This document shows, piece after piece, positions 7,660-35,916 of a DNA stretch of 40,332 bases. Source of the stretch: Bacteroidales bacterium (lineage in GTDB: Bacteria; Bacteroidota; Bacteroidia; Bacteroidales; WCHB1-69); NCBI GenBank assembly GCA_017395245.1, contig JAFPVR010000096.1:1-40332 (forward strand). Direction: 5' to 3'. Position 1 is the first letter of the stretch. The number at the start of each line of letters is the position of its first letter. The position numbers were made by a program, and so were the translations under genes. The notes beneath the pieces are model-generated. The model saw only the letters and a program-made list of their open reading frames with translations, had not been told where the DNA came from and searched no databases.

Positions 7660-8266
7660 GCAGTTAGAAGCCCTTTGGCAGCAGCAGGACGAGCGGCTGC
7701 AACATATCGAACACGTGCAGCAGGAATCAGTGCGCCGACTTTTGAACCGAAGCATCACCTCCACTCACCGGCGCTTCCTGATCGAAAACATCTGCGCCGT
7801 GGTTTTTGGCCTCATCGTGGAAATCTTCATCCTCTCGAAGGCGGAAATGTGCTTCGCCAGCTGGAGTTTAGCCATACCCTTCCTGATTTTCAACGTTCTG
7901 TATTTTGCCTGTATCATCTGGTATGCGGTTTGGGTGGTCCGCTTCTGGAAACACGACCCGCTGAACAGCCCCACTGTTGAGGCTATGCGGTTCGCCGACC
8001 ACTGGCAGTTGGCTTTCAAACGTTCGGTAATATGGGGCTTCGGCGTTCTCTTGCCTCTGTGCCTCGCCGCCGGTTTCCCAGTTTTCACCTACATCTTTAC
8101 CCGAAGACCTTTCCACTACGCCGACTTGCAATATATGACCCCGTTGCAGATCCTTTTTGCTGCACTGATTTATGCCGCCTGCATTGCCTACGCCATTTAC
8201 GAAATAAGGCTGACCCGCGAACTGAAGGAAAATCTGAAAACCTATGACGAACTTCTGGAAAACTAA
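7643..8266 (+). CDS. Four-TM membrane protein paired with ECF sigma factor
   Basis: 207 residues. Residues 1-45 are a Gln/Glu-rich helical region. TMs follow near residues 47-67, 74-100, 123-147 and 167-187, then a helical tail ending 'KTYDELLEN'. It starts inside the last codons of the sigma gene. Its plan matches the 1439-2017 protein, although direct sequence similarity is low. It is a candidate membrane-bound regulator of the sigma factor, by position. No enzymatic motif or known anti-sigma domain is visible. Confidence 0.75.
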   Translation: MEKTFEQLEALWQQQDERLQHIEHVQQESVRRLLNRSITSTHRRFLIENICAVVFGLIVEIFILSKAEMCFASWSLAIPFLIFNVLYFACIIWYAVWVVRFWKHDPLNSPTVEAMRFADHWQLAFKRSVIWGFGVLLPLCLAAGFPVFTYIFTRRPFHYADLQYMTPLQILFAALIYAACIAYAIYEIRLTRELKENLKTYDELLEN

Positions 8267-8295
8267 CCACTACTACCTAACTTTGAACTTTGAAC
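8261..8295 (+). repeat. Short 7-bp periodic array (weak)
   Basis: Five heptamers in register: AACTAAC, CACTACT, ACCTAAC, then TTTGAAC twice. The first unit contains the TAA stop (8264-8266) of the membrane protein. It is too short to be certain alone; the other arrays in the window support it. Confidence 0.4.
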
Positions 8296-8327
8296 TAAAA
8301 AAGTACAAACACCAATATCAAACCATT

Positions 8328-9014
8328 ATGAAAAAAGTTATCGTTTTCGCCATCATCGGAGTCATACTCCTTACGGGCTGCCATCAAACCAAGGCCGTCC
8401 AATACAATGTTGATCCCGACCAAGTTTTCGGTCAACATTACACCGCGAAAGATTTCGGGATCTGGTATCTGCTGGACTATGATAACCTATTCCTTTCGTT
8501 AGTCAATGCGGTCATGGAACGCTTACCCGAGGAAAAACAAGTTGCTTGGGATACCCAAAATGGACTCCAATTCCCTGCTTCTGATACCGCTGCTTTTATG
8601 AACGCCTTGCGGGAATGCAAGTTGCCGCTACTTTCTCCAAATGGCAGCAAACTCATCCCCTGTTGGCTTCCGGTGTCGGCATCACAAGAGGGACTATACC
8701 AGTTCAACGTGTGTTACGGCGATGCCTCGGGCAACCCGATCTTTGACGGAACGCAAGTCAAAAAATGCACCGTCGAGAAAAGCGATTATACGGGTGGTTA
8801 CGAGGTGCTGATGCAATTCGACATGAAAACGGCGGACCAGTGGCAGAAGTTCACAGCGGCGAATGTCCACAAGCGGGTCGGAATGATGCTCGGTACCGAC
8901 CGGCTGCTGAGTGCACCGCAAATCATGTGCGAAATTGCCGGCGGCGCCTGCTGTATCTCTGGAACGACAGAGGAAGAGTGCTACGCCCTCGCCAACATAC
9001 TGAACAAGAAATAG
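8328..9014 (+). CDS. Lipoprotein with SecD P1-head-like domain
   Basis: 228 residues from the ATG at 8328, chosen because it gives the lipoprotein signal 'MKKVIVFAIIGVILLTGC'; an in-frame ATG at 8244 would lie inside the previous gene. The C-terminal 70 residues resemble the head of the periplasmic P1 domain of SecD: 'FDMKTADQWQKFTAANVHKR', then 'VGMMLGTDRLLSAPQ', then 'GGACCISG..TEEECYALANIL'. In SecD the same order is a KRxAIVLDGxxxSAP block followed by GGxAxISGxxTxEEAxxLAxLL. The transmembrane part of SecD is absent, so this is a stand-alone lipid-anchored version. It follows the sigma/TM pair and may be an envelope sensor or export-related factor; that role is inference. Confidence 0.65.
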   Translation: MKKVIVFAIIGVILLTGCHQTKAVQYNVDPDQVFGQHYTAKDFGIWYLLDYDNLFLSLVNAVMERLPEEKQVAWDTQNGLQFPASDTAAFMNALRECKLPLLSPNGSKLIPCWLPVSASQEGLYQFNVCYGDASGNPIFDGTQVKKCTVEKSDYTGGYEVLMQFDMKTADQWQKFTAANVHKRVGMMLGTDRLLSAPQIMCEIAGGACCISGTTEEECYALANILNKK

Positions 9015-9027
9015 TCAGTCTGCCAAC

Positions 9028-9090
9028 AACCATAAACTATAAACCACAAACGGTAAACAATAAACCAGCTTCAATAACCAATAACCCATA
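9028..9090 (+). repeat. 7-bp periodic array
   Basis: Nine heptamers in register, mostly of the form AACnATA or AACCAnA (AACCATA, AACTATA, AACAATA, ACCAATA). The array begins 13 bp after the lipoprotein stop and ends 30 bp before the FISUMP start. Confidence 0.75.
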
Positions 9091-9120
9091 GATAATATTG
9101 GCAATCGAAAATCTTCCAAA

Positions 9121-35349: not shown

Positions 35350-35358
35350 TGTTGTTTG

Positions 35359-35505
35359 GTTTAAGTTTTAAAGTTTAAGGTTTATTGTTCGTTGTGATTA
35401 GTGATTAGTGATTAGTGATTAGTGACTAGTGAACTGTGAACTAAAGTCAGCAGTTGTCGGAAATCCTGTTCACTGTTCACTGTTCACTATTCACTCTTCA
35501 CTTAT
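35359..35505. repeat. 7-bp periodic array between groES and groEL
   Basis: About twenty-one heptamers in one register fill the intercistronic gap: GTTTAAG-type units, GTGATTA four times, GTGACTA, GTGAACT twice, three irregular units, then CACTGTT twice, CACTATT, CACTCTT, CACTTAT. The left and right halves are roughly reverse complements (GTGAAC versus GTTCAC). The last unit contains the groES stop (35502-35504, minus strand). Confidence 0.88.
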
Positions 35506-35777
35506 TTACAGATCGCGTAGATGTCGCTCTCCTTCATGATGAGGTAGGTCTCTCCGTCGAGTTGGATTTCGGTGCCGGAGTATTTGCCGTAGAGCACGGT
35601 GTCCTTCACCTTGACGGTCATGGGTTCGTCCTTTTTGCCGGGACCGACAGCGATGACGGTGCCTTGTTGGGGTTTTTCTTTGGCGGTGTCGGGGATGATG
35701 ATGCCGCCGGCGGTTTTCTGTTCAGCTTCTGCAGGTTTCACTAAAACTCTGTCTGCTAAAGGTTTGATGCTTTTCAT
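35502..35777 (-). CDS. groES: Co-chaperonin GroES
   Basis: 91 residues. Typical opening '[20 protein letters not shown]', a mobile loop '[19 protein letters not shown]', and closing '[20 protein letters not shown]'. It caps the GroEL ring. It is first gene of the groES-groEL operon. I see no CIRCE element upstream and no clear TAnnTTTG box; a small inverted repeat (35806-35820) lies 29 bp before the start. The final codons are untouched by the heptamer array, which begins at the stop. Confidence 0.97.
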
Positions 35778-35805
35778 ACTGTTTTTTATTTTAAGTTAGA
35801 ATTAT

Positions 35806-35820
35806 CGTCATTTTTTGACG
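35806..35820. promoter_or_regulatory. Inverted repeat upstream of groES
   Basis: CGTCA-TTTTT-TGACG, 29 bp before the groES start. It could be an operator or an mRNA 5' hairpin. It does not match CIRCE. Confidence 0.35.
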
Positions 35821-35846
35821 GCGGTATATGTTGCAAATTCCGTGCC

Positions 35847-35916
35847 AGTTTCAAGACTTGAGACTTTAGACTTAAGACTTTGGACTTGAAACCTGGAACT
35901 TGAAACTTGAAACTTG
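35847..35916. repeat. 7-bp periodic array upstream of groES
   Basis: Ten heptamers in register: AGTTTCA, AGACTTG, AGACTTT, AGACTTA, GGACTTG, AAACCTG, GAACTTG and AAACTTG twice, with one unit used twice. It shares AAGTTTC and AAGTCTT-type words with the array behind groEL. This 266-bp gap (35778-36043) otherwise holds only the palindromes below. Confidence 0.82.

Follow-up and report, generated by a model that had tools for sequence, protein, structure and literature searches.

Heptameric intergenic arrays of a Bacteroidales genome and its relatives: gene-edge placement, strand polarity, inverted pairs and a possible origin as satellite DNA

Introduction

Heptamer repeats have been known for decades, and those of Calothrix carry the name short tandemly repeated repetitive (STRR) sequences. 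Here we describe arrays of 7-bp units in the gene gaps of a Bacteroidales bacterium, based on a stretch of 40,332 nucleotides (contig JAFPVR010000096.1 of GenBank assembly GCA_017395245.1, hereafter the window), on larger samples of the same genome and on related genomes. Another group of intergenic repeats, the repetitive extragenic palindromic (REP) sequences and bacterial interspersed mosaic elements (BIME), forms hairpins directly after stop codons in operons; REPs are fixed palindromes of 20-40 nt linked to Y1 transposases (REP-associated tyrosine transposases, RAYT).

The heptamers GGGAATC of Xanthomonas and GGGGA(C/T)T of Nostoc are over-represented in non-coding DNA (Rehm et al. 2015, PMC4692102). 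Their G-rich strand is sense within 50 bp after stop codons, which the repeats may overlap, and antisense within 50 bp before start codons, and farther away the other strand is G-rich. They occur as single arrays or inverted pairs, prefer no gene class and vary in length between relatives. The words can form G-quadruplexes, four units being preferred, and quadruplexes were discussed in connection with the polarity; heptanucleotides of Calothrix are cited in the same paper. Direct repeats of TAACTGA have been found in Beggiatoaceae, Cyanobacteria and five Bacteroidetes including Paludibacter (MacGregor 2015, PMC4679880). In Geobacter metallireducens (PMC2700814) four tandem heptanucleotides (GGGACCG) occur at 49 places within and between genes, and a second class occupies 16 sites, 15 of them with five heptanucleotide repeats (MTYCTGA); unlike the arrays described here, each of these families has one consensus word and copies that can be aligned by BLAST. 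Long simple sequence repeats with units of 5-11 nt were surveyed by Mrazek et al. (2007, as cited in PMC4679880 and PMC4692102), 7 nt being the commonest unit in most genomes; according to PMC4679880, heptamers were the most abundant class and polymerase slippage was proposed. A 2025 survey (PMC12699852) found units of 6-9 bp enriched in prokaryotic phyla. The literature covered gives no agreed cause or role for heptamer repeats.

Materials and methods

The window forms a single contig in a draft genome of 3.78 Mb (97.6% complete) labelled G000 in our set, and G034 is a sister species; the genomes used for comparison are draft assemblies, many of them incomplete. Arrays in the window were located with Tandem Repeats Finder and by counting matches at fixed lags, the latter being stricter and giving six merged segments. 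Genes were called by our own procedure from open reading frames (ORFs) and codon usage, which is not an annotation and assigns about 88% of the DNA as coding. The G000 sample comprised 685,550 bp including the window, about 11.6% of it intergenic. Most of its stretches were chosen from contigs with listed matches to TTCACT, and array densities in G000 are therefore inflated. G034 was picked for its richness in arrays and sampled over 500 kb, of which contigs C1 and C2 (440 kb) were picked regardless of arrays.

Results

The heptamer arrays are a class dispersed over the genome and mostly intergenic, in which, multiples of 7 set aside, period 7 is by far the commonest. The G000 sample contained 191 arrays at lag 7, of which 174 were intergenic, compared to 3, 3, 7 and 12 intergenic arrays at lags 5, 6, 8 and 9; the 14 lags tested besides 7 gave 0-14 in all, the highest number at lag 22. 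The G034 sample contained 148 arrays at lag 7 (137 intergenic), compared to 2, 10, 18 and 7 intergenic arrays at lags 5, 6, 8 and 9 and a maximum of 18 over the nine lags tested besides 7. Seven G000 stretches without listed matches (140 kb) had 10 intergenic arrays at lag 7 and 0-3 at 15 other lags; with a stricter threshold, lag 7 gave 5 compared to 0-3 elsewhere, the 3 being at lag 22. A weaker class with a 22-bp period was also present in the gene gaps of G000 (14 intergenic arrays at the lowest threshold, compared to 2 in the 500 kb of G034). In 37 G000 arrays of at least 49 bp, identity was 0.84, 0.83, 0.79, 0.80, 0.76 and 0.78 at lags 7, 14, 21, 28, 35 and 42, and 0.19-0.28 at eight off-lags. 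As identity was still 0.78 at lag 42, the phase is kept. When lags 4-21 were counted in the window, a threshold of 17 matches out of 21 was reached by 6 segments at lag 7, 6 at lag 14 and 5 at lag 21, and the sole other segment, at lag 12, was inside an ORF.

The motif TTCACTRTTCACTRTTCACT, with two mismatches allowed, matched 132 times in G000, and its reversed control did not match at all. It had 0-276 matches in each of 39 further genomes of the genus and was matched in 68 of 104 genomes of the family. Over 40 genomes of the genus the density of the TTCACT pattern was 0-99 per Mb and increased with genome size (rho 0.46). Arrays were near absent in some sister species, with none in 69 kb of G036 or 22 kb of G028.

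Unlinked arrays share words. In G000, 9.3% of 13,970 unlinked array pairs had a word in common, compared to 1.6-1.8% after permuting the seven columns in every array, and in G034 8.3% of 10,811 pairs compared to 1.3-1.6%, an excess of about five-fold. A null of single-word arrays (0.18%, giving an excess of about fifty-fold) was rejected as too low. The commonest words keep a core of 4-6 nt and vary in 1-3 slots, alike at unlinked loci. Families were first picked by eye and then retested from the commonest words, and variation fell in fixed slots: GTGA+DYD, GACTT+RR, TGAA+W+C+Y, GAATG+H and GGTTAT+D. This concentration was significant for nine seeds (chi-square p 1e-4 to 1e-11) and for eight G000 words (p 1e-3 to 1e-8). 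Certain letters are missing from the slots, namely C from the last slot of GTGA, GACTT and GGTTAT, and G from the slot of GAATG. In G034, 2 of the 16 commonest words had enough variants for the slot test. For AACCCAT, a member of the GGTTAT family, 12 of 12 one-step variants were at the fifth position, so that the GGTTAT slot is the same in two species; for AACCCTT no slot was found (p 0.15). Rare private variants were not limited to slots, although the 28 distinct ones in 657 units are too few to test.

Neighbouring units were more alike than in order-shuffled arrays (0.655 compared to 0.549, and 0.648 compared to 0.468; 0/500 shuffles), an observation made without reference to families which weakens the idea that slot letters are drawn independently for each unit. 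The GTGA family was organised in 14-bp dimers (lag-1 0.26, lag-2 0.49), and in the GAATG family adjacent units were alike (p 0.008). Recent block copying between loci was considered and rejected. The mean longest shared run, observed and shuffled respectively, was 1.59 and 1.48 units for GACTT, 0.675 and 0.673 for GTGA, 0.358 and 0.332 for TGAA, and 1.00 and 0.88 for GAATG, those of TGAA and GAATG surpassing the shuffle by 2-3 standard deviations. Unit order is thus barely common to loci, and most arrays are therefore not recent block copies.

The arrays crowd at stop codons. In codirectional gaps of G000, 64 of 129 arrays lay no more than 10 bp from the stop codon upstream, compared to a mean of 21 with random placement and a maximum of 33 in 2000 trials (38 in a rerun). 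The corresponding figures for G034 were 48 of 98 arrays, a random mean of 15 and a maximum of 28. Start codons showed no excess in codirectional gaps of G000, with 29 arrays within 20 bp and 34 expected.

The arrays also have a strand polarity, which was counted for 316 arrays pooled from G000 and G034, each scored by its nearest gene end. Within 10 bp of a stop codon the strand running outward from the gene was G-rich for 100 of 123 arrays in codirectional gaps (20 C-rich, 3 ties) and for 24 of 29 in convergent gaps (3 C-rich, 2 ties), i.e. 124 compared to 23, with 5 ties, in all. At larger distances from the stop the sign flipped, to 15 G-rich and 33 C-rich arrays (2 ties). For arrays within 80 bp of a start codon the outward strand was G-rich in 61 cases compared to 8 (2 ties) in codirectional gaps and 20 compared to 5 (1 tie) in divergent gaps, together 81 compared to 13 (3 ties); beyond 80 bp the count was 7 to 9 (1 tie). 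Array-free gaps had no bias after stop codons (G 0.200, C 0.214), for which reason general selection on composition was rejected for the stop side; before start codons array-free gaps were also mildly short of G. At least four G- or C-tracts of three were present in 3 of 168 arrays of G000 and 4 of 148 of G034, with no GGGNATC pair. With 309 of 316 arrays lacking four G-tracts, quadruplexes are no general cause of the polarity.

Stop codons in all three frames were considered as a driver. In the sense strand of arrays after stop codons they had a frequency of 0.64 in G000, compared to 0.51 in a letter-permuted null (p 0.006), and of 0.39 in G034, compared to 0.43; G029 and G033 had only 5 and 8 such arrays, respectively. 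Before start codons the frequencies were 0.51 compared to 0.28 in G000 (0/500) and 0.50 compared to 0.15 in G034 (p 0.022, 8 arrays). Since the effect was also seen before start codons and was not reproduced after stop codons in G034, three-frame stops were rejected as a general driver.

Part of the gaps contain two arrays: 29 of 104 array-bearing codirectional gaps in G000 and 25 of 82 in G034. In these gaps the left array was closer to the reverse complement of the right array beside it than to those from other gaps (p 0.0088 in G000, 29 gaps; p 0.0099 in G034, 25 gaps). Direct likeness within a gap exceeded chance as well (p 0.0003 and 0.0092, respectively), and strong matches (score at least 10) were inverted in 9 and 10 gaps and direct in 3 and 2. 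A whole-gap duplex test was set aside in favour of this comparison of array against array, as it was positive both with and without arrays and thus uninformative.

The groES-groEL gap has such a pair, of which the two arms change words together. The words after groES and before groEL were GTGAAC and TTCACT in G000, GACTTAG and AAGTCTC in G033 and G034, and GTGATTA and AATCACA in G029, and this two-arm change was seen between genomes with GroEL proteins 98-99% identical. As exceptions, the arms of G019 and G021 carried unrelated words, and in G010 the groES end was missing. Pairing was evaluated for the 18 of 27 readable groES-groEL gaps of the genus that were at least 100 bp long. Own arms paired with -25.0 kcal/mol compared to -16.3 kcal/mol for foreign arms (0/10,000 permutations). 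The difference was obtained also with 13 genomes, after removal of near-duplicates and of gaps with other palindromes (p 0.0028), and with 10 close genomes (p 0.004). Restricting the comparison to the 7 closest genomes with arrays gave p 0.053. The gap is 182 bp long in G033 and 175 bp in G034, a difference of one complete unit in the right arm (one case, judged by eye). Among groES-groEL gaps of other Bacteroidota, 4 of 34 had a fold z of -3.5 to -4.9 (L034, L058, L064 and L065), the strongest being that of Mucilaginibacter lappiensis (L065, z -4.9). Some flanks at these four loci look complementary, and the spacing of their repeats is not always 7.

In G012, G013, G019 and G020 the array enters groES and alters its last residues. 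The C-terminus ..YAICK has become ..YAVIS in these genomes (loci L128, L124, L126 and L127, respectively), and the word CAGTTATCAGTTA at these groES ends resembles the TAACTGA of Beggiatoaceae.

An operon with 98-100% identical proteins can carry or miss an inverted pair. Of 24 readable korA-korB gaps, 22 were 12-40 bp long and began with TAA, and those of G000 (101 bp) and G039 (93 bp) began with TAG and had an inverted GTGAAT/ATTCAC pair. Compared to G000, the DNA of the nearest genomes with a short gap had an identity of 97-98% in the initial 300 bp of korB and of 90-91% in the final 300 bp of korA. KorB was 98-100% identical in genomes of the genus of which the NusB-like protein was only 79-90% identical to that of G000, and at short-gap loci (among L221-L225, L228 and L249) the flanking DNA differed by about 0.2-4%. 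It is possible that korAB was recently transferred within the genus or is strongly conserved.

At the gap between the nusB-like and DUF1573-like genes (30 loci, judged by eye) the word varies among the arrays present, being GACTTGA in G000 and G038, GACGTGG in G022, TGATAAT in G018, G034 and G008, and GAATGTA in G010 and G029. No array was found by eye at the 13 most distant of the 30 loci.

The ten arrays of the window are listed in Table 1. The sequence-only reading of the window had pointed to eight places, all of which carry heptamer arrays, and the arrays at 27021-27076 and 35466-35502 are separate additions. Its claim of 5 to 21 units without loss of phase holds for the phase, but the first array has fewer units and the longest counted was the 13-unit array at 33626..33717. 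It had also called the arrays intergenic, which they mostly are, but those at 25712 and 26975 reach about 20 bp into ORF ends. The recurrence of words between arrays on either strand was confirmed, as was the view of one array class with a strict period and a shared vocabulary. The excess of lag 7 over lags 5, 6, 8 and 9 that it proposed to look for was found in both species, in samples rather than whole genomes.

Table 1 Heptamer arrays of the window and the groES-groEL genes
Feature	Position	Strand	Location or remark
AACTTTG array, 2.6 units	8279..8296	+	just 3' of the stop codon of ORF 7643-8266
AACCATA/AACTATA/AACCACA array, passing into CAATAAC units	9028..9090	+	between two plus-strand ORFs
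CCTACTC/CCTATTC array, passing into TTAAACC units	11517..11584	+	ends at the start codon of ORF 11584-13581
Array drifting from GAAGAAT to CTGAAT to GTGAATA	25712..25773	+	begins in the 3' end of ORF 24279-25733
CAATGAA/CAATGTA array	26975..27005	+	includes stop codon 26992-26994 of ORF 25957-26994
TTCACTG/ATCACT array, C-rich sense strand	27021..27076	+	just 5' of the start codon of ORF 27082-28632
AAGTTTC/AAGTCTT array, 13 units	33626..33717	-	convergent gap, adjoins the groEL stop codon
groEL ORF (presumed), 544 aa	33715..35349	-	homologue matches
Right arm, groES-groEL gap	35360..35442	-	on the groEL strand TTCACA/TTCACT/ATCACT, then TAAACCT toward the groEL start
Left arm, groES-groEL gap	35466..35502	-	on the groES strand GTGAATA/GTGAACA
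groES ORF, 91 aa, Cpn10	35502..35777	-	
AGACTTG array, passing into GAAACTT	35854..35916	-	5' of groES

The first array sits within the predicted start region of ORF 8244-9014, and the second begins 13 bp past the stop codon of the same ORF. ORF 24279-25733 encodes a malic enzyme and its stop codon (25731-25733) is inside the array; ORF 27082-28632 encodes a histidine kinase. Read outward on the groEL strand, the array at 33626 is AGACTTG/AAACTTG. The left arm lies directly 3' of the groES stop codon and is complementary to the right arm. The 544-residue ORF is one which we take to be groEL, a name that agrees with its Cpn10 neighbour. Of 80 matches kept for its product, 78 carry Bacteroidota names, judged from titles, and the remaining two are titled as an uncultured bacterium and as a metagenome-assembled genome of Clostridium sp. 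The five nearest among the matches listed, in which its own or a very near genome is possibly omitted, are 80-86% identical and from uncultured Bacteroidales or Bacteroidota.

A scan of the window against Rfam gave a single match, a tRNA gene (RF00005) at 16579-16665 between ORFs 15730-16503 and 16732-18291. A 12-bp tandem repeat, of which the period is a multiple of three, lies at 3964-4034 within ORF 2838-4199. Repeated intergenic palindromes co-occupy some array gaps (GTAGAGACGCA..TGCGTCTCTAC; CCCAGGGTGAACGAAGTGAGCCCTGGG; CCTTGAGCAGCCTCGAAGAGGC followed by CCCCACACAAGGCGAAGCCGCAGTGTGGGG), with sites at 35962-36037 of the window, 5794-5983 of L161, 10925-11205 of L011 and 18576-18720 of L172.

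Discussion

What was observed in these genomes is the period, the placement and polarity of the arrays, the sharing of words and their turnover at orthologous gaps, the inverted pairing found in some gaps, and one operon that may have or lack the pair. We consider with a probability of roughly one half that the arrays are satellite DNA of the gene gaps which expands by steps of 7 nt and through fold-back copying, and we infer that for the most part they are not required but tolerated. A copying process at the DNA level would then make heptameric arrays throughout the lineage, with no tie to the regulation of a single gene. A seed at a gene edge, mostly a stop codon, would be extended by 7-nt slippage during replication or repair, and growth may also proceed as 14-nt dimers. 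The growing strand could turn back and serve as its own template; one arm would thereby be converted to the reverse complement of its partner, and the two would switch word together. The flanking genes would bound the arrays, the gap being filled from stop codon to leader, and sometimes an array would replace the last codons of a gene. Such a satellite would explain the period, the local likeness of units, the whole-unit indels and the paired changes of arms, as well as the presence or absence of arrays in like operons and their near absence in some sister species.

Several observations weigh against this reading. The G-outward handedness and the recurrent slots are left outside it: array-free gaps are unbiased after stop codons, and mere tolerance of composition therefore cannot yield the polarity, and cores far less variable than slots at unlinked loci suggest recognition or templating. 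In runs of GACTT, GGTTAT, AGTTAG and AGGCA the agreement of neighbours was about that predicted from the pool of units, which plain one-unit slippage does not predict. The sequence-only reading had attributed the family to unit substitution and slippage, which agrees with the likeness of neighbours overall but not with core-defined runs of most families; local duplication is thus real, but not the full explanation. The same reading had held that spacing matters more than the word, and indeed the period is strict while words change, but a core is kept and variation is confined to few slots. It was silent on stop-codon anchoring, outward polarity and inverted pairing. The placement at stop codons depends on our own gene calls, and a stop-rich array can itself set the end of an ORF, although the conserved groES end argues that such an artefact is not the whole story. 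No enzyme or mutant ties fold-back copying to the arrays, and over 40 genomes of the genus the counts of DinB-type polymerases and SbcD were uncorrelated with arrays. Y1_Tnp had 3 matches in G000 and over the 40 genomes correlated weakly with pattern density (rho 0.375, p 0.017, uncorrected for genome size), which may be an effect of genome size or reflect a role of the transposase.

The main rival is a selected intercistronic hairpin. Inverted arrays would pair in the transcript as stem-loops of the REP type, acting in stability, processing or uncoupling of translation, and the word would be free as long as both arms change. We regard this as rather unlikely, although the better pairing of own than of foreign groES-groEL arms, the locus-specific inverted pairing in two genomes and the well folding gaps in some other Bacteroidota (4/34 with z < -3) are all as it predicts. 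A strand-specific trace was also found, as 20 pairs had 47 positions with A in the left arm and T in the complemented right arm, and 4 positions of the opposite kind. On the other hand, G.U pairs were barely favoured over A.C (36 compared to 28, with 14 of the 36 G.U from one long array), and the antisense strand paired about as well (p 0.010). Only 7 of 22 groES-groEL gaps in the genus had a fold z < -3 (median -1.9). Together these results do not demonstrate selection at the RNA level. Further, the pairing was at p 0.053 among the closest array-bearing genomes, only a minority of array-bearing codirectional gaps have two arrays, 22 of 24 korA-korB gaps miss the pair, direct likeness within gaps is also above chance, and the whole-gap duplex test was equally positive for array-free gaps.

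Plain replication slippage with neutral drift, without pairing or polarity of its own (the view of Mrazek 2007 according to PMC4679880), is less likely still. It would give the strict period, the changes in unit number, the likeness of neighbours, the occurrence in all gap types and the scaling with genome size. It is strained by the inverted pairing, the polarity and the sharing of words at unlinked loci, and it also fails on the structure of cores and slots.

We find it improbable, slightly more so than plain slippage, that a protein reads the arrays in 7-bp steps, as DNA or RNA, with the core as contact and the slots free. The kept cores with 1-3 slots, the slots being the same from one unlinked locus to another and, in the case of GGTTAT, between two species, and the anchoring at gene edges would fit such a reader. 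However, at least 7 different cores coexist in one genome, and several readers would therefore be required; the exclusion of certain letters from the slots is unexpected for free positions, and sister species have few or no arrays (0 in the 69 kb of G036).

An enzyme of the reverse transcriptase or telomerase kind might copy from a template, or Ku-type end joining might heal breaks, in either case writing the same word outward from both edges. This would account for the outward polarity of every gap type, the use of one word in both arms, cores that are fixed while slots are misread, and the replacement of gap contents. It is very improbable, as RVT_1 was matched in 9 of 40 genomes (including the array-rich G033 and G034) but not in G000 (97.6% complete) or the array-rich G029 (99%), and Ku was found in none of the 40 genomes examined in the genus; an unknown polymerase family is possible as a templated copier.

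Beyond the satellite reading of these genomes, we tentatively raise the possibility, with odds well short of even, that the arrays of at least three phyla (Bacteroidota and those of Xanthomonas and Nostoc) follow one geometry, set by one undescribed process of DNA copying in 7-nt steps. If so, arrays would extend away from gene edges led by their G-rich strand, with any word and without quadruplexes, and the process would write words of fixed core and degenerate slots and remake both arms of a hairpin together. The two-arm word change and the presence or absence of the korA-korB pair make the origin of the arrays directly testable.

Compared to REP and BIME, which are fixed palindromes, the arms described here consist of changing words, and Y1_Tnp tracks the arrays weakly at best. 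No conserved unit of 20-40 nt was found in the arrays, as arm words vary by gap and unit order is barely shared. In the literature covered, which is thin on subscription journals, there was no report of two-arm word switching or of core and slot words, and the polarity seen here was reported solely for quadruplex repeats. As this polarity occurs here in arrays mostly unable to form quadruplexes, its cause should be more general. The survey of Mrazek (2007), as described by the citing papers (PMC4679880, PMC4692102), names no polarity, pairing or core and slot structure, all three of which are present here.

Repeats of this kind are already on record from Bacteroidetes, TAACTGA having been reported in five of them including Paludibacter (MacGregor 2015, PMC4679880). 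Like the arrays described here, the TAACTGA repeats are heptamer arrays in gene gaps, with indels mostly of 7 nt and a presence that varies among relatives, and in some genomes they are mixed with other heptamers. The TAACTGA direct repeat itself was not found in the two samples (G000, 686 kb; G034, 500 kb), and most TAACTGA arrays of BOGUAY lie just before start codons, whereas the arrays here crowd at stop codons. The heptamers of Xanthomonas and Nostoc (PMC4692102) share with the present arrays the 7-nt unit and the same polarity, including the change of strand with distance. They differ in that here many words are used, quadruplex potential is rare (3/168 and 4/148 arrays), and words change at orthologous gaps, in some of them in both arms. 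The proposed likeness to the heptamer repeats of cyanobacteria holds, and the arrays are a Bacteroidales version of the known heptameric intergenic repeats, that is the cyanobacterial STRRs, TAACTGA and GGGAATC/GGGGAYT.

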